Translations under genes and position numbers: made by a program
Shown: positions 18,741 through 25,921 of the stretch, piece by piece
How the letters are laid out: every line of letters begins with the position of its first letter
Numbering within the stretch: position 1 is the first letter of the stretch
The notes under the pieces: generated by a model
Databases searched by the model: none
Seen by the model: only the letters and a program-made list of their open reading frames with translations
What the model was told of the DNA's origin: nothing
NCBI GenBank assembly: GCA_030613245.1
Contig: JAUWMI010000023.1
Span: 1 to 64,000 of the forward strand
Length of the DNA: 64,000 nt
Reading direction: 5' to 3'
Source: Candidatus Sumerlaeota bacterium
GTDB taxonomy: Bacteria; Sumerlaeota; Sumerlaeia; MWCT01; JAUWMI01

Positions 18741-19532
18741 ATGTCAACTAAAGAACTTGAGCTTTTTCAGAAACTTCTCAATATCATGGCCACTCTCCTT
18801 GGTCCAAACGGCTGCCCCTGGGATAAAGAGCAAACCCATCATTCTCTTAAACCCTTTCTCGTCGAAGAAGCCTACGAAGTCAACCAGAGCATTGACAACT
18901 CAGACTTTGAAGCACTGAAGGAAGAACTTGGCGATCTCATGCTCCAGATCGTCTTTCATGCCGAACTCGCAAAGCTGGCGAAAAATTTTACTATTACCGA
19001 TGTGCTCCAGAGCATTTGTAACAAAATGATTCGCCGTCATCCTCATGTCTTTGCCTCTGATAAGTTGAAAACATCCGCCGAGGTCCTTAAAAACTGGGAA
19101 CATCTTAAAACACAGGAAAAGCAGCAAGATTCCGACTCGTCTATCCTTTCTGGTATTCCCATTCAACTGCCAGCGCTAATTCGTGCCCACCGTATTCAGG
19201 ACCGCGCCGCACGCGTGGGCTTCGACTGGGAACACACACAGGACGTAATCAACAAGGTCGAAGAAGAGCTCGCAGAGCTCAAAGAGTCTTGCGCATCCGA
19301 AGATCCTAAGAAAATTGAAGAAGAATTCGGCGACACCCTCTTTGCCCTTGTCAACCTCTCGCGCTTCCTTTCCGTCCATCCTGAAGAGGCCTTGCAAAAA
19401 ACAATCTCAAAATTCATCAAGCGATTTAAATACATCGAACAGAAAGGTCGCGAATGTAACAAGAACCTGAAAGACATGACCTTTGAAGAAATGGACAAAT
19501 TATGGGAGGAGTCTAAAACTGCTGAGTCGTAA
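18741..19532 (+). CDS. mazG: nucleoside triphosphate pyrophosphohydrolase MazG
   Basis: MazG hydrolyses NTPs or dNTPs to monophosphates and clears aberrant nucleotides. The 263 residues have the characteristic CPWDKEQTHHSLKPFLVEEAYEV and KEELGDLMLQIVFHA in the first half (ExxE...ExxD metal site), and a second copy EEELAELKE...EEEFGDTLFALVNLSRFL in the second half. Length is typical of the two-domain form. It lies upstream of the DUF4190/pseudopilin-like tandem genes, with no obvious functional link. Confidence 0.95.
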   Translation: MSTKELELFQKLLNIMATLLGPNGCPWDKEQTHHSLKPFLVEEAYEVNQSIDNSDFEALKEELGDLMLQIVFHAELAKLAKNFTITDVLQSICNKMIRRHPHVFASDKLKTSAEVLKNWEHLKTQEKQQDSDSSILSGIPIQLPALIRAHRIQDRAARVGFDWEHTQDVINKVEEELAELKESCASEDPKKIEEEFGDTLFALVNLSRFLSVHPEEALQKTISKFIKRFKYIEQKGRECNKNLKDMTFEEMDKLWEESKTAES

Positions 19533-19612
19533 TTGCCACCATGCAAAAGCCTGCATTCATCTCTTTATAGCGGCGATCCAGCGAATCGCCCTCCTTGCCC
19601 CAGGTAAAGAAG

Positions 19613-20512
19613 ATGACCAGTCAAAAGCCAATCCAGCACGCGGACACAAAACCCGGCGACACTGAACAACCAGCCAAAACGAAACCCAGGATCAGCCGCC
19701 TCGCCATAGCAAGCCTGCTCCTGGCCATCCTTATTCTTTTCCCTCGATACGGCCCCCTGTTTGGAGTCGCCGCTGTAATTACTGGTGGTGCTGCCTGGCA
19801 ATGGATTGCCCGAAGCCCCAGCAAATTAAAAGGCCATAGATTAGCCACTACCGGCCTAGTGCTGGGAGTGATTGGCCTAATGTGTTTCTCGGTCATAGAA
19901 GATCTCCAAGTTTGCGTCATCCGAAGATTACCCCGAGCATGGGTTCGACCAGTAGCAAACTTTACGGGAATGGGAATGGCTGTATTTCGTAGCTTTAGAA
20001 GTAGGGTCTCGCGGGTAAAAGCGGACCTCCGATCTATATCTATGGCGCTGGAGGCTTACTATCAGGAGCATAATTCATATCCCGCCTGGGCCAAGGGTGA
20101 AAGCGGGGCAAATAGCTTTGCTGGACCTAATAGCGGCGCTTATTACATTCATACCTTTCGCATCTGGAAAAACGAGAACGAAGCGGGTGCTTTTTATACT
20201 TTAACCACTCCCTTGGCTTATTTCACCAAATATATTTCTGATCCATGGGCTGACACCTGGGGTACGACTTATGGCTATTATGCGGACGAACACGGCTGGA
20301 TACTTTACAGCTGGGGTCCCGATATAGATGAAAATGGAATAGGGGACCCGGGAGATTTGGAACCTGATGTTGAGCAGGTTTACCGAAGTAGTATATCCCA
20401 GCCCTCTCTCACTCTCATTGCCGGGAGCAGCTCATCATCCCATGAGGCATACACGTATGATGTCACTAACGGCACCATCAGCCCGGGTGACCTCTGGCGA
20501 GTTAGACAGTGA
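19613..20512 (+). CDS. DUF4190-like membrane protein with pseudopilin-like C-terminus (no zinc ribbon)
   Basis: The ATG at 19613 follows AGGTAAAG; an upstream TTG at 19595 is less likely. The 299 residues start with a charged segment, then two membrane segments of the DUF4190 type (AIASLLLAILILFPRYG...; LATTGLVLGVIGLMCF). A GspG-like core follows (SRVKADLRSISMALEAYYQEHNSYPAWAKG), with TTPLAYFTKYISDPWAD, YGYYADEHGWILYSWGPD and the final YDVTNGTISPGDLWRVRQ. The C-terminal half matches the soluble part of major pseudopilins, but no prepilin peptidase site (GFTLIE-type) is present. Unlike its two paralogs it lacks the zinc ribbon. Function unknown; it is probably an inner-membrane protein with a periplasmic domain. 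Confidence 0.72.
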   Translation: MTSQKPIQHADTKPGDTEQPAKTKPRISRLAIASLLLAILILFPRYGPLFGVAAVITGGAAWQWIARSPSKLKGHRLATTGLVLGVIGLMCFSVIEDLQVCVIRRLPRAWVRPVANFTGMGMAVFRSFRSRVSRVKADLRSISMALEAYYQEHNSYPAWAKGESGANSFAGPNSGAYYIHTFRIWKNENEAGAFYTLTTPLAYFTKYISDPWADTWGTTYGYYADEHGWILYSWGPDIDENGIGDPGDLEPDVEQVYRSSISQPSLTLIAGSSSSSHEAYTYDVTNGTISPGDLWRVRQ

Positions 20513-20526
20513 CATTCATTATACTT

Positions 20527-20821
20527 TAACGCGATGTGCAAGTTTTTGGGACTTGCATAGATAATTAAAGATCCCCGGCTAAGTGGTTGTGGTAAGGTAA
20601 CTTGGAGTGCGTAAGCGCAGCGACAGCGGAGCTTGCGCTTTTAGATGCCGAAGCGCAGCTTCGGCCTTTTTGGCCCGCCACGGCGGGCCTTGAGCAAGGC
20701 GGTAGCTTTACTACGTTTCGCTACCGCACTCCATATGGCTATACGGTTCAAACGTTTACAGCATCCTACAAACAGTTTGCGACTGAAATATTAAGGCTCT
20801 AAAAACTTGCATATCGCGTTA
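20527..20821. mobile_element. 295-bp MITE-like element with 21-bp terminal inverted repeats
   Basis: The left end TAACGCGATGTGCAAGTTTTT (20527-20547) is the inverse complement of 20801-20821 with one mismatch. A third partial copy (ACTTGCATA, 20551-20559) lies just inside. The interior is packed with hairpins: GCCGAAGC/GCTTCGGC (20647-20665) followed by CTTTTT, GGCCCGCC/GGCGGGCC, and GCGGTAGC/GCTACCGC. No open frame looks real. CTTTAA occurs at both edges but overlaps the left repeat, so a target duplication is not secure. Confidence 0.55.
20647..20671 (+). terminator. terminator-like hairpin inside the element
   Basis: GCCGAAGC (20647-20654) pairs with GCTTCGGC (20658-20665) around a GCA loop, followed by CTTTTT. 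It could end the transcript of the 19613 gene. Confidence 0.6.
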
Positions 20822-20865
20822 GTCTTTAAACACTAATTCGATGGCCTGAGGGGAGTGAAGCTACT

Positions 20866-21819
20866 ATGTTTTGTCCGAAATGTGGCAGTGAATTGGAAGA
20901 AGGAACAAGGGTTTGTCAGAAATGTAGCACCGGTTTCCGTATTGAGCCAGCCCCAACAGCTGGCCAGCAAGAACCGGCTACTAGGCCAAGAGTCTATTGG
21001 CCCGCCATCGCCAGTATGATTCTTGGCATCCTCATTCTTTTGCCCATTTTGGGACTTCCGTTTGCTATTGCTGCCGTAATCACCGGTGCAGTGGCTTTAA
21101 TTCGCATAACTGCAAGCCGGGGTAAATTAATCGGAAATGAAATGGCTGTTTGCGGCATTATTCTTGGCATGCTGGGTATCCTACTATTTCCGTTTATCTT
21201 CTCGATTCACAGACCATTTATATCGAATCTGCCGAAGATTATTGTCCATCCTGTAGCAAGATTCACAGGAATGGGAATGATGCTATACGGCGATGCCCCT
21301 GGCGTTCGATCAAAAGTTTCCCAAGTAAAAACAAATTTGCGAACCATAGCCACATCCCTGGAGGCTTACTTTGTTGATACTATGCTATATCCAGCATACG
21401 CCAGGGGCGATCAGGGAGCAAACAGTTTTGCAGGTCCTCATGCCGGCGCCTATCATATCCACACGTTCAGAACATGGCGAGACGATAGCGAGCGAGGTAC
21501 ATTTTATACACTGACAACTCCCATACCTTATTTGCCTTCTTACCTGCGCGACCCATTTGCCTCGACCAGAGGCGCTACGTATGGCTATTATTGTGACCTG
21601 AACGGCTGGATACTTTACAGCTGGGGCCCGGATATGGACGAAAACAATGCGTATCAATGGGATCTGGAACCTGACGTAGAAATGGTTTACAAAAGTTTCA
21701 TAAGGCAGCCTTCACTTACTCTCATGTGCGGCACCAGCTCATCATCCCATGAGGCATATACCTATGATCCCACAAACGGCACCATCAGCCCGGGGGACGT
21801 CTACCGCGTTAAACAATGA
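20866..21819 (+). CDS. zinc ribbon-DUF4190-pseudopilin-like protein, paralog 2
   Basis: The 317 residues begin with a zinc ribbon (MFCPKCGSELEEGTRVCQKC, two CxxC pairs). A DUF4190-type membrane region follows (AIASMILGILILLP...AVALIRI-RGKLIG-MAVCGIILGMLGILLF), then a GspG-like segment (SKVSQVKTNLRTIATSLEAYFVD-MLYPAYARG). The end matches the neighbours: YGYYCDLNGWILYSWGPD and YDPTNGTISPGDVYRVKQ. The N-terminal ribbon should be cytoplasmic and the C-terminal domain is probably periplasmic. No prepilin cleavage site is present. It is very similar to the product at 21907 and clearly arose by duplication. Function unknown. Confidence 0.78.
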   Translation: MFCPKCGSELEEGTRVCQKCSTGFRIEPAPTAGQQEPATRPRVYWPAIASMILGILILLPILGLPFAIAAVITGAVALIRITASRGKLIGNEMAVCGIILGMLGILLFPFIFSIHRPFISNLPKIIVHPVARFTGMGMMLYGDAPGVRSKVSQVKTNLRTIATSLEAYFVDTMLYPAYARGDQGANSFAGPHAGAYHIHTFRTWRDDSERGTFYTLTTPIPYLPSYLRDPFASTRGATYGYYCDLNGWILYSWGPDMDENNAYQWDLEPDVEMVYKSFIRQPSLTLMCGTSSSSHEAYTYDPTNGTISPGDVYRVKQ

Positions 21820-21906
21820 TATTCATTACAGCTTGGAATTAAGTGGCCAATAATATAATGAGGGCCAAATCTATCTTAATCAAAGAAATCGGGGGGTGCA
21901 GACATC

Positions 21907-22854
21907 GTGTTCTGTCCCAAATGTGGCGGTGAATTAGGGGAAGGGGCAAGGGTTTGTCCAAAATGCGGGGCACTGTTGTCTATGGAACCGGAACCAAGTG
22001 ATGATCAGCAAGAACCTGTGACAAGGCCTAAAATCTGTGGCCGCGCTATCACCAGCCTAATCCTCAGCATTCTGTTTCTTGTTCCACTAATTGGCAATCT
22101 ACTTGCCCTTTTTGGCATAATCTTTGGCGCCAACGCCTTAATCCGCATTGCCAGAAGCCGGGGTAAACTAACCGGCACCAAATTTGCCGTGTGCGGGATC
22201 ATCATAGGCATACTCGGTATCATAATGCTAATTCCACCAACTGCTTGGACCGCAAGAAGGGTTTTATCCAGGCTGCCAGACCTCTTGGCTCAACCGGTTA
22301 TAAGGCACACCGGGATGGGGATGATGATACGCGTTGTAACTCGTGGAAGGGTTTCACAAGCAAAAACTGATTTACGCACCATAGCTACGGGCTTGGAGGC
22401 TTACTTCGTGGATAATATGCAATATCCAGCCTGGGCTAAGGGCGATCAGGGAGCAAACAGTTTTGCCGGCCCTAAGGCTGGGGCTTATCATATTCACACA
22501 TTCAGAATATGGCGTGACGAGAGCGAGGTAGGCACATTTGCTACGTTGACTACTCCAGCTGCCTATTTACCATATTACCTCTCTGATCTGTTCGCCTCAA
22601 CCAGAGGTGCTACGTATGGATATTACTCGGATGAAAACGGATGGATATTATTTAGCTGGGGGCCTGATTATGATGAGAACAAAAGAGAAAGTTGGGACTT
22701 AGATCCTGACGTAGAAATGGTTTACAAAAGTTCCATAAGCCAGCCTTCTCTTACTCTGCTTACTTGCACCAGCTCTCTATCAGGCGAGGCTTATACATAT
22801 GATCCCACAAACGGCAGCATCAGCCCGGGTGACGTCTACCGCGTTAAACAATAA
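21907..22854 (+). CDS. zinc ribbon-DUF4190-pseudopilin-like protein, paralog 3
   Basis: It starts at GTG 21907 after a GGGGGG-rich site, which places the zinc ribbon (FCPKCGGELGEGARVCPKCG) at the N-terminus as in its neighbour. The same order follows: DUF4190 membrane region (AITSLILSILFLVPLIG; FAVCGIIIGILGIIML), GspG-like helix (RVSQAKTDLRTIATGLEAYFVDNMQYPAWAKGDQ), YGYYSDENGWILFSWGPD and YDPTNGSISPGDVYRVKQ. The three genes are in tandem with short gaps and may be co-transcribed. They may be under recent duplication pressure, because the N-terminal segments differ more than the C-terminal ones. Confidence 0.78.
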   Translation: MFCPKCGGELGEGARVCPKCGALLSMEPEPSDDQQEPVTRPKICGRAITSLILSILFLVPLIGNLLALFGIIFGANALIRIARSRGKLTGTKFAVCGIIIGILGIIMLIPPTAWTARRVLSRLPDLLAQPVIRHTGMGMMIRVVTRGRVSQAKTDLRTIATGLEAYFVDNMQYPAWAKGDQGANSFAGPKAGAYHIHTFRIWRDESEVGTFATLTTPAAYLPYYLSDLFASTRGATYGYYSDENGWILFSWGPDYDENKRESWDLDPDVEMVYKSSISQPSLTLLTCTSSLSGEAYTYDPTNGSISPGDVYRVKQ

Positions 22855-23174
22855 CGCATGATTTGCAACGGCCTGACCACCTCAACAGGAGATTTTGCCA
22901 AAGAACAATATGAAAATCATCCATCACGATCCATTATGTGAAAATGGTAGGGGCAACCCTTGCGGTTGCCCAAAACAATAAATCCTGGGCAGGCACGAGG
23001 CCTGCCCCTACGAATGGACGAAATCGTCCGTCACCAATGTAATAAATATTGTAATGTTTCATAAAGCGTCTCTATAACACCAATCAACACCACGCTCTGT
23101 CGTACACACGAGAAATTTTCGTAGGGGCAACCCTATGTGGTTGCCCAAATATCTCTGCAGCAAAGCCATTCGAC
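22855..23174. repeat. intergenic region with three GTAGGGGC palindromes
   Basis: Copies lie at 22947-22971 (GTAGGGGCAACC...GGTTGCCC), 22987-23011 (GGGCAGGC...GCCTGCCCCTAC) and 23121-23146 (GTAGGGGCAACC...GGTTGCCC). The first and third share arms and point the same way. No gene is present. Confidence 0.7.
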
Positions 23175-25169
23175 ATGAACACTAAATACATAGAGCGCTA
23201 CTCCCTCTGGTCTGCCGCAATCGCGGGGGCCGGAGTAATGAGCCTTGAGATATCCGGCTCTCGTATAGTAGCGCCTTATTTTGGCACGGGAGTTTGGGTC
23301 TGGAGCTGCTTGATATCCGCAACCCTGGCGGGATTAGCATGGGGATATCACCACGCAGGAAAGAAAGCCTCCGCAGAGCGTACAGAATTTCTTATCCCTC
23401 GACTGTTTTTTCGCTCCGCACTCTATGTATTAGTCGTAATAGCAATTTTCCATCGCCCATTACTTTTTCTTTTTGCTTATTCAGGCTATCTGCTTGGAAG
23501 TCTGGTAAGTACAGCCGTATTCTTCATTTACCCCATGTATTGTTTGGGTCAGGTTCTTCCTTATGCCGTGCGCTGGATGAAAAGTGGCAATGAGCAGGCA
23601 TCATGGCGCGCAGGACGAGTCTATTCGCTCTCTACTGTGGGCAGTATTTTCGGCACCTTACTCACAGGTCTCGGACTAGCGACCTGTTTTGGAGTGAGAC
23701 CCTTAATAGCTTTCTGGGTATTAATATTCCTTGTTGTATCGGCCTGGGGGAGACGCCTGACCGGAAAGCGTCCGCTCTATGGAATATTTTGGGTTTTCCT
23801 GTTCGCGATAATAGACTTAACAATGTCTCTCTTTTTGCCCCCATTCTACTATTCTTATCCACCGCCCGTTTATAGCAGCGGAGCCTACGGCGAGATAATG
23901 ATTTTTCAAGGCGACCCCATGGTAATGAGCATAGATGGATTGCCCCAAACAGGATTGCCAAAAGAACTCCTGAAACGAAAGGTCTCGGAGGACTATTTCT
24001 ATAACCAGCGCTATTTTTTGCCATTGCTTATGCGAATACGCCCGGAAGGAAAAGAGGCGCTGGTCATCGGGCTTGGTGGTGGGTTGATGGAAAAGGTATT
24101 CAACTCCATGGGCGTTAAGTGTGAATTTGTAGAAATTAATCCCAAAGTGATAGAGTTTGCCCGCGAATATTTTAAGGTCACCTCTCCTGTATACCACTCA
24201 GATGGTAGATGGTTTTTAAGAAAGACCAAAAAGAAATATGACTTCATAGTACTTGACGTCTACCAATCAGACCAATTGGGCTGGCACATGCTCACCCATG
24301 AGGCATTGGAGCTCGCTACGAAACGCCTGGAAAAGGATGGTGTTTTAGCGGTTCATCTTTTAAGTTTCGCCAAGTCCAGTCGTATAAACAATTCCATAAG
24401 CCGAACATTGAGAAAAAGTTTTCCTTACGTTGAGGTAATATCCACTTATCCAGACAGCCCCGAACAGTTACAAAGTTTATTCCTTTTCGCCTCTCGCCAG
24501 CCCATGTCGTTACCTGAAAATGTTCCTGGAGTAGCAGAGCTAAAAAGGTTTCAATTAAAATTACCAGCCCAAAAGGGCGTTATATTGAAAGATGGTTACT
24601 TCCCTTTGGAACTTGCCTGGGCGGGAATAGCACAGGACTGGCGGCGGAATTTTAGAGCACATGAATTTGGACTATACGATGCTGGGATCCTGGGTATGGC
24701 AATAGCAGGATTTATGGACGCGCAGATAAGAAGTAAAGTAAGCCGTGTCAAACTTCAAACAAGAGATCTTTCGCAGCACTTTGAGAAGTTTGAAAAGGAC
24801 TATGGACGCCTACCCGATAATCAAGAGGGACTGAAATCTTTGGAAAAGTACTATCAACAACAAGGAAGGACTGAAGAGACACTTAAAATTCAACAACTAA
24901 TAATAGACCCATTTAGCGAACACCGAGAGTTTCTATTCTATCGCTATTCTAATACGCCGGATGAGCTAGCAATCATTGGAAGCCGTGGGCCAGACCAAGA
25001 TATTGATTTTCTATCCGAATTCATTAAGCTTACGGAGAAGACAGATCAAGAAAACTTTTGGTACTGGCTATTAGGACAAAGAATGAATAAACAATTCATT
25101 GAACTAATCTATGATCCCACCAATGGTATTATCAGTAATGGGGATATTATCTATTTGATTGATCAGTAG
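23175..25169 (+). CDS. spermidine-synthase-like membrane protein fused to a pseudopilin-like C-terminus
   Basis: The 664 residues start with about seven membrane segments, with MSLEISGSRIVAPYFGTGVWVWS typical of fused MFS/spermidine-synthase proteins. A Rossmann domain follows: VIGLGGGLMEKVF, VEINPKVIEFAREYF and FIVLDVYQSD, which keeps the conserved Asp of aminopropyltransferases. After about residue 490 comes a segment like those of the three upstream genes: GMAIAGFMDAQIRSKVSRVKLQTRDLSQHFEKFEKDYGRLPDNQEG, then YDPTNGIISNGDIIYLIDQ. This is the same C-terminal signature on a different carrier. Polyamine synthesis is not certain because many fused members lack it. A GTAGGGGC palindrome lies just upstream. 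Confidence 0.75.
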   Translation: MNTKYIERYSLWSAAIAGAGVMSLEISGSRIVAPYFGTGVWVWSCLISATLAGLAWGYHHAGKKASAERTEFLIPRLFFRSALYVLVVIAIFHRPLLFLFAYSGYLLGSLVSTAVFFIYPMYCLGQVLPYAVRWMKSGNEQASWRAGRVYSLSTVGSIFGTLLTGLGLATCFGVRPLIAFWVLIFLVVSAWGRRLTGKRPLYGIFWVFLFAIIDLTMSLFLPPFYYSYPPPVYSSGAYGEIMIFQGDPMVMSIDGLPQTGLPKELLKRKVSEDYFYNQRYFLPLLMRIRPEGKEALVIGLGGGLMEKVFNSMGVKCEFVEINPKVIEFAREYFKVTSPVYHSDGRWFLRKTKKKYDFIVLDVYQSDQLGWHMLTHEALELATKRLEKDGVLAVHLLSFAKSSRINNSISRTLRKSFPYVEVISTYPDSPEQLQSLFLFASRQPMSLPENVPGVAELKRFQLKLPAQKGVILKDGYFPLELAWAGIAQDWRRNFRAHEFGLYDAGILGMAIAGFMDAQIRSKVSRVKLQTRDLSQHFEKFEKDYGRLPDNQEGLKSLEKYYQQQGRTEETLKIQQLIIDPFSEHREFLFYRYSNTPDELAIIGSRGPDQDIDFLSEFIKLTEKTDQENFWYWLLGQRMNKQFIELIYDPTNGIISNGDIIYLIDQ

Positions 25170-25921
25170 AATTGCGAAAATCTTTGCTTCAATGAATTTA
25201 ATTCCAAAATTTCTCTGCTTGTTTTTCTACTAAAGTATTTATATATATAAACAATATATATAAAGCTAGTTATAGTAGTAGGTACAAGAATTATGGGGAA
25301 TACACAGCCAAGGTATGAATTTTGAGTGATAAGGCATGTTAACAACCGACACTGGGTTTTTCAGAAAACACTAACAGCATTTAGTTGTAAAAAGAATATG
25401 AAAAATCTTTGTTTAGATTATCAACAATCTGGCTCTCAAGTTGTGAATCATTCTATGAGATGATTTGGGGATTTAGCGCCGAAAGATTCTCCCAGAAAGG
25501 CCATCATACTCCACCAAATGCCTATATATAATTATCCACAGGGTTATCCACAGGCTAAAACAGGTTCTGACACATGGAAAAGGGCAGCCATCTTTATCTT
25601 AAATGGTTGATATAACAAGAGATACAAGGACAAAGCAGATTAACCTTTAGAAGGGGAGTTTTTGAGTTATCCACAGGCAGCATTTGTGTTCTGATTGCTG
25701 GTAAAGGGATGTTCAAAGCTCACGATTCAGAAACATTTATATGGAATCAGGTCAATAAACCGCCCCTCTTGAGCGTGGAGTTTTCCACAATTGATTCTCT
25801 TCCTCCATAGACGGTTCCTAATAGCACGAAATAAGGCCCAAAAGCAAAAGGGTCTTGACATATGCGAAAGGATTTCTCTATAAATATGGCTTTGTTTGGC
25901 TAGCAAGGGGAAAGCACAATA
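25170..25921. other. putative origin of replication region
   Basis: Three perfect DnaA boxes (TTATCCACA at 25532-25540, 25544-25552 and 25667-25675) and two one-mismatch boxes (TTATCAACA 25418-25426; TTTTCCACA 25781-25789) point in the same direction. An AT-rich track (about 25225-25280, TATATATATAAACAATATAT) could be the unwinding element. The region ends at rpmH, which borders oriC in many bacteria. dnaA is not adjacent, so the call rests on boxes and synteny only. Confidence 0.6.
25855..25884 (+). promoter_or_regulatory. promoter of the rpmH-rnpA cluster
   Basis: A perfect TTGACA (25855-25860) and TATAAA (25879-25884) are 18 bases apart. The start of rpmH lies 38 bases downstream. Confidence 0.65.

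Follow-up and report, generated by a model that had tools for sequence, protein, structure and literature searches.

The hallmarks of a pilin are a leader that is cleaved off and a helix through which filaments form. A departure from this plan with some likeness to the genes described here is found in the split pilins of Geobacter, whose head is encoded without the leader and the helix. The two-protein terms PilA-N and PilA-C are used in PMC9207759. As regards the pseudopilins, the Ca ion in the GspG structure 3G20 is held by the main chain of P114 and V119 together with the side chains of D117, T122 and D125 (PMC3396595).

The window analysed in this study is a stretch of 64,000 nucleotides of one contig (C17) of a draft metagenome-assembled genome of Sumerlaeota (4.29 Mb in 97 contigs, 96% complete). 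The first-pass annotation described three adjacent genes with a DUF4190 region, preceded in two of them by a zinc ribbon, and the common ending YD(P/V)TNG(T/S)ISPGD. Coordinates, Pfam scores and endings all agree with this description of the trio, but a fourth gene bearing the same C-terminal domain had been missed. The features are as follows:

19613..20512, + strand: gene 1, DUF4190 and a leaderless pseudopilin domain, zinc ribbon absent
20000..20509, + strand: pseudopilin domain of gene 1, from alignment and profile search
20866..21819, + strand: gene 2, zinc ribbon, DUF4190 and a leaderless pseudopilin domain; AlphaFold models made
21301..21816, + strand: pseudopilin domain of gene 2, folded alone (mean pLDDT 84.8, pTM 0.82); top four Foldseek matches GspG
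21907..22854, + strand: gene 3, zinc ribbon, DUF4190 and a leaderless pseudopilin domain; GTG start
22345..22851, + strand: pseudopilin domain of gene 3, from alignment and profile search
23175..25169, + strand: gene 4, polytopic, spermidine-synthase-like (NF037959, E 2.7e-37), T2SSG 21.1 bits, aligns with the trio
24732..25166, + strand: pseudopilin domain of gene 4, from the T2SSG match and alignment

DUF4190 (PF13828) scored 38.4, 40.1 and 39.4 bits in genes 1, 2 and 3, respectively, all above the Pfam cut-off of 35, and Zn_Ribbon_1 (PF13240; cut-off 25) scored 25.2 bits in gene 2 and 29.6 in gene 3, with no match in gene 1, for which two starts (ATG at 19613 or TTG at 19595) can be considered. 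The three proteins end in YDVTNGTISPGD, YDPTNGTISPGD and YDPTNGSISPGD, respectively, and their C-domains are closely related, with 78% (gene 3) and 65% (gene 1) identity to that of gene 2. The Ka/Ks values were 0.10-0.21 for whole genes and did not exceed about 0.27 in the N-terminal part, with some Ks values saturated; at Ka/Ks of about 0.1-0.3, the genes of the trio are real and evolve under purifying selection.

The 353-base gap between genes 1 and 2 contains several inverted repeats (20590-20730), including a terminator-like stem at 20647-20665. Promoter and terminator counts were near those of shuffled sequence, and an Rfam search of 19000-25500 gave no match. Gene 4 encodes a membrane protein related to fused MFS/spermidine synthases, whose C-terminus is the pseudopilin domain of the trio. 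Between genes 3 and 4 lies a dispersed palindromic repeat, GTAGGGGCAACCCTTGCGGTTGCCC, at 22947-22971 of the window and again near 23121; it has 17 copies in the genome at no more than 2 mismatches, and a control pattern has 0.

The GspG-like character of the C-terminal half, as originally proposed, was confirmed at the level of both profile and structure, and neither search pointed to an unrelated fold. With a profile of 65 C-domains, the first eight matches among PDB sequences were GspG structures (best 2kep, E 8.9e-6). In a Foldseek search with the AlphaFold2 model of the gene 2 C-domain, GspG occupied places 1-4 (4lw9, probability 0.97; 3g20, probability 0.85) and pilins places 1-13, at weak E-values (best 0.022); those of the full-length model were weaker still (best 0.32), and the C-domain was therefore folded separately. 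The family models are passed only in part: T2SSG (PF08334; cut-off 21) is exceeded by gene 1 (22.3 bits), not reached by gene 3 (17.0) and unlisted for gene 2, and the curated GspG model TIGR01710 (cut-off 88.85) is missed by all, at 19.2 bits or less. The GPD of the C-domain matches the GPD of 3G20 and is kept in 0.95 of the leaderless rows. The alignment of the second Asp of the Ca site is uncertain; it plausibly corresponds to that of the final S.GD.

A class III prepilin leader, strict or loose, was absent from the coding frames of 19400-25300 in an all-frame scan that did detect a control prepilin, and the FTLIELLIVV codon pattern, present at 17 places in the genome, does not occur in contig C17. 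No hidden prepilin peptidase site or pilin N-terminus was thus found upstream, and the earlier claim that DUF4190, in two of the three genes together with a zinc ribbon, takes the place of the leader is upheld.

The C-terminal ending itself is not peculiar to these genes. The YDPTNG codon pattern occurs 36 times genome-wide (0 in the reversed control), and extraction with a looser motif yielded 38 ORFs with a YDPTNG-type ending, of which about 20 carry a prepilin leader, in most cases FTLIELLIVV, and about 18 are leaderless. As about half of the occurrences belong to prepilins, the ending is no hallmark of leaderless genes. The N-terminal partners of the leaderless heads in the same genome include zf-HC2 with FecR, thioredoxin with TPR, HEAT repeats, a DUF3352-like lipoprotein, helical lipoproteins and a single TM. 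A true prepilin of the genome (C55, near 63798) carries a zinc-ribbon-like CxxC...CxxC insertion within its head domain. The co-occurrence with prepilin peptidase, raised by the first-pass annotation as a point to be checked, was found: the genome encodes one prepilin peptidase, at C50:21142, and about eight GspF/PilC-type platform proteins, and therefore true pilin assembly exists in it.

In a tree of the 65 C-domains the trio forms one clade (SH-aLRT 96), which adjoins a prepilin of the same genome, C65:6241-6801 (83); the branch of gene 4 is very long (4.04) and its placement was left unused. Since the neighbour of the trio in the tree is a true prepilin from its own genome, the leader was probably replaced, and we infer the direction of the swap to be from prepilin to leaderless fusion. 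The leaderless label requires 8 changes on the tree as compared with a mean of 17 after shuffling; well-supported branches alone force at least 2 changes, and it is uncertain how many swaps were independent. On the simplest reading, more than one transfer of a prepilin head behind a new N-terminus took place.

The pattern of conservation agrees with a loss of the filament function and retention of the head, as the core is kept and the start of the helix is relaxed. Core positions stand at 0.9-1.0 in the leaderless rows, with E166, Y168, D171, P176, P219, D229, G254, P255, D256, N304, G305 and G310 (gene 2 numbering) at 0.95-1.00, although the conservation of YDPTNG and LEAY, in contrast to the other positions, is partly circular, as these motifs served in collecting the sequences. 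In the retained helix start, on the other hand, Q and K each fall from 0.89 to 0.30 and S from 0.89 to 0.60.

The closest relatives in named records belong to the Sumerlaeota (BRC1). A scan of genome contigs with the full-length trio alone gave no match, and matches appeared only once relatives had been added to the query. The zinc ribbon-DUF4190-pseudopilin architecture, for which the first-pass annotation recommended a search of genomes, was recovered with a leaderless head in two loci: L137, whose gene is also that of L089 and which belongs to the same order, and L160, which is identical with L118, belongs to the same class and has a different ribbon type. The gene of the latter (L160:2064-2963) lies within a cell-division cluster, between ORFs that by eye resemble ftsW and murG. 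Other Sumerlaeota use other anchors: a two-gene tandem (L156), a single TM (L157), a single TM in tandem (L158), a polytopic region (L161), a lipoprotein (L145) and GYF_2 with a TM (L153). In two Sumerlaeota the pilin segment is found in the middle of envelope-like proteins of ~2,500 residues (L165, 2502-9950; L172, 3022-10584). A 668-residue protein from outside the phylum, with a PilA-type segment (L238:809-2812, reverse complement), has a similar-looking architecture.

Fusions of DUF4190 with a pilin are also found beyond the phylum, and the swap is therefore not the accident of one lineage. In L199, DUF4190 is joined to a head ending in YDPTNGLKSAGD, and within 30 bases the gene is followed by an ORF of 367 residues bearing two leaderless heads. 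L197 combines a zinc ribbon and DUF4190 (E 5.3e-14) with a PilA-type pilin (typeIV_PilA_Myxo, E 1.3e-15), which has kept the AIAIPNF helix and lacks the leader. L192, L193 and L200 are probably similar fusions, judging by an AIPNF-type helix and their mutual similarity (best family E 0.05), and the same may be true, less surely still, of L194 and L195. A tandem pair of leaderless PilA-type heads on polytopic anchors (L234:953-1855 and L234:1819-2682) occurs in a genome that shares its genus with that of L197.

DUF4190 is not mentioned in the open literature searched (subscription journals for the most part and bioRxiv lie outside its scope, so that an earlier description is possible), nor does any paper in it combine DUF4190 with a pilin; papers on Sumerlaeota and pilins, as far as their available text extends, do not treat such fusions. 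Within this literature, the combination is indeed not a described system.

Architecture and recurrence are well supported. As to function, we suggest, on balance, that the products of the trio are membrane-locked, non-polymerising pilins, whose periplasmic heads would serve as modules for interaction or for Ca binding. With no more than the C-terminal half of its first helix left, the head of a GspG-type prepilin resident in the genome would have been joined behind a new anchor, DUF4190, and the fused gene, in two of three cases with a zinc ribbon in front, would then have undergone tandem duplication. By established pilin biology, a product without leader, Glu5 and the hydrophobic half-helix should neither be cut by prepilin peptidase nor enter a filament, and would be held in the inner membrane with its head most likely in the periplasm. 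There, the head would act as an interaction module. It would probably dock on pilins or assembly platforms of the same cell, or bind Ca, and might perhaps relay a signal to the zinc ribbon on the inner side. Docking or Ca binding in the periplasm, in connection with the pilins of the cell, is thus the likeliest role.

The main rival, which we regard as possible rather than probable, is generic domain reuse: the pilin head would be merely a stable extracytoplasmic module placed on many envelope proteins, with no functional tie to pili left. It gains from the very different partners within one genome (FecR, thioredoxin-TPR, HEAT, DUF3352-like lipoproteins and the spermidine-synthase-like gene 4), from the relaxed helix positions and from the neighbourhoods, since no neighbour genes are common to the window, L137 and L160 and no conserved link to pilus or T2SS genes was found among them. 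However, the trio is close to one resident prepilin and the core of the head is fully conserved. The occurrence of the same domain on many N-terminal partners in the genome does indicate that a resident pilin head has been fused repeatedly, rather than that a single system exists. Hence, of the surface or periplasmic scaffold distinct from type II secretion envisaged by the first-pass annotation, the dedicated system is not supported, owing to the many partners and the lack of shared neighbours, and the periplasmic site depends on the DUF4190 passes.

The DUF4190 region has one hydrophobic stretch on each side of a positively charged loop; the first, of ~36 residues, has a P/G region at its centre. 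Taken as a hairpin followed by one pass, the DUF4190 region would give an N-in, C-out orientation, as in pilins. In the AlphaFold model of gene 2, on the other hand, two long hydrophobic helices are seen, 45-83 (drawn as one) and 91-114, and residues 45-83 as a single helix would permit two passes with the head inside. The head would then act in the cytoplasm, e.g. with the zinc ribbon. We consider this unlikely, as a charged loop separates the hydrophobic stretches and those leaderless relatives whose N-terminus is simple (by sequence, a single TM, a signal peptide or a lipobox) place the head outside; moreover, the fusions that retain a pilin helix after DUF4190 (L197) suggest the N-in, C-out orientation of pilins. 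A periplasmic head is thus most likely, although it hinges on the number of passes.

It might also be proposed that the C-domain, including the YDPTNG...GD end, serves as a tag for sorting or secretion and directs diverse proteins to a common export route, as many unrelated proteins have the same module close to their very C-terminus. This seems very improbable, because the module is the normal head of ordinary, leader-bearing prepilins and a folded domain of about 150 residues, which in L165 and L172 stands mid-protein. An artefact (frameshift, misassembly or decaying pseudogenes), conceivable in a metagenome-assembled draft of 97 contigs, is refuted by three diverged open copies with Ka/Ks of 0.10-0.27 and by the same architecture in independent assemblies.

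Returning to the membrane-locked pilins, it may tentatively be proposed that they form a widespread, unnamed class, recurrent in several phyla. Its members would face pilus and secretion machinery as fixed partners, decoys or sensors, and those with DUF4190 would connect a head in the periplasm to a zinc ribbon in the cytosol. Since leaderless heads are nearly as numerous as prepilins in one genome and the swap recurs beyond the phylum with a different pilin type, counts of pili or T2SS based on matches to pilin domains can mislead. The data suggest a second life of pilin heads as envelope modules.

Among known systems, the nearest relatives of the trio C-domain are the YDPTNG prepilins of Sumerlaeota (e.g. 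C65:6241-6801, L065), which share the ending TYDPTNGTISPGDVYRVKQ and differ in having FTLIELLIVVAIIAILAAIAIPNF where the trio has DUF4190. With GspG, the major pseudopilin of the T2SS (PF08334, TIGR01710), the trio has in common the head fold, the YP and SxGPD features and, plausibly, part of the Ca site; in contrast to GspG, it has neither the class III leader nor the hydrophobic half-helix and lies outside any gsp operon. The two-part membrane region is shared with DUF4190 proteins (PF13828), often bearing a zinc ribbon, most of which, among those retrieved, end after this region or run into other domains, and only some into a pilin domain. Finally, in the split pilins of Geobacter the head is a separate protein, whereas in the trio it forms one chain with an unrelated, polytopic anchor.
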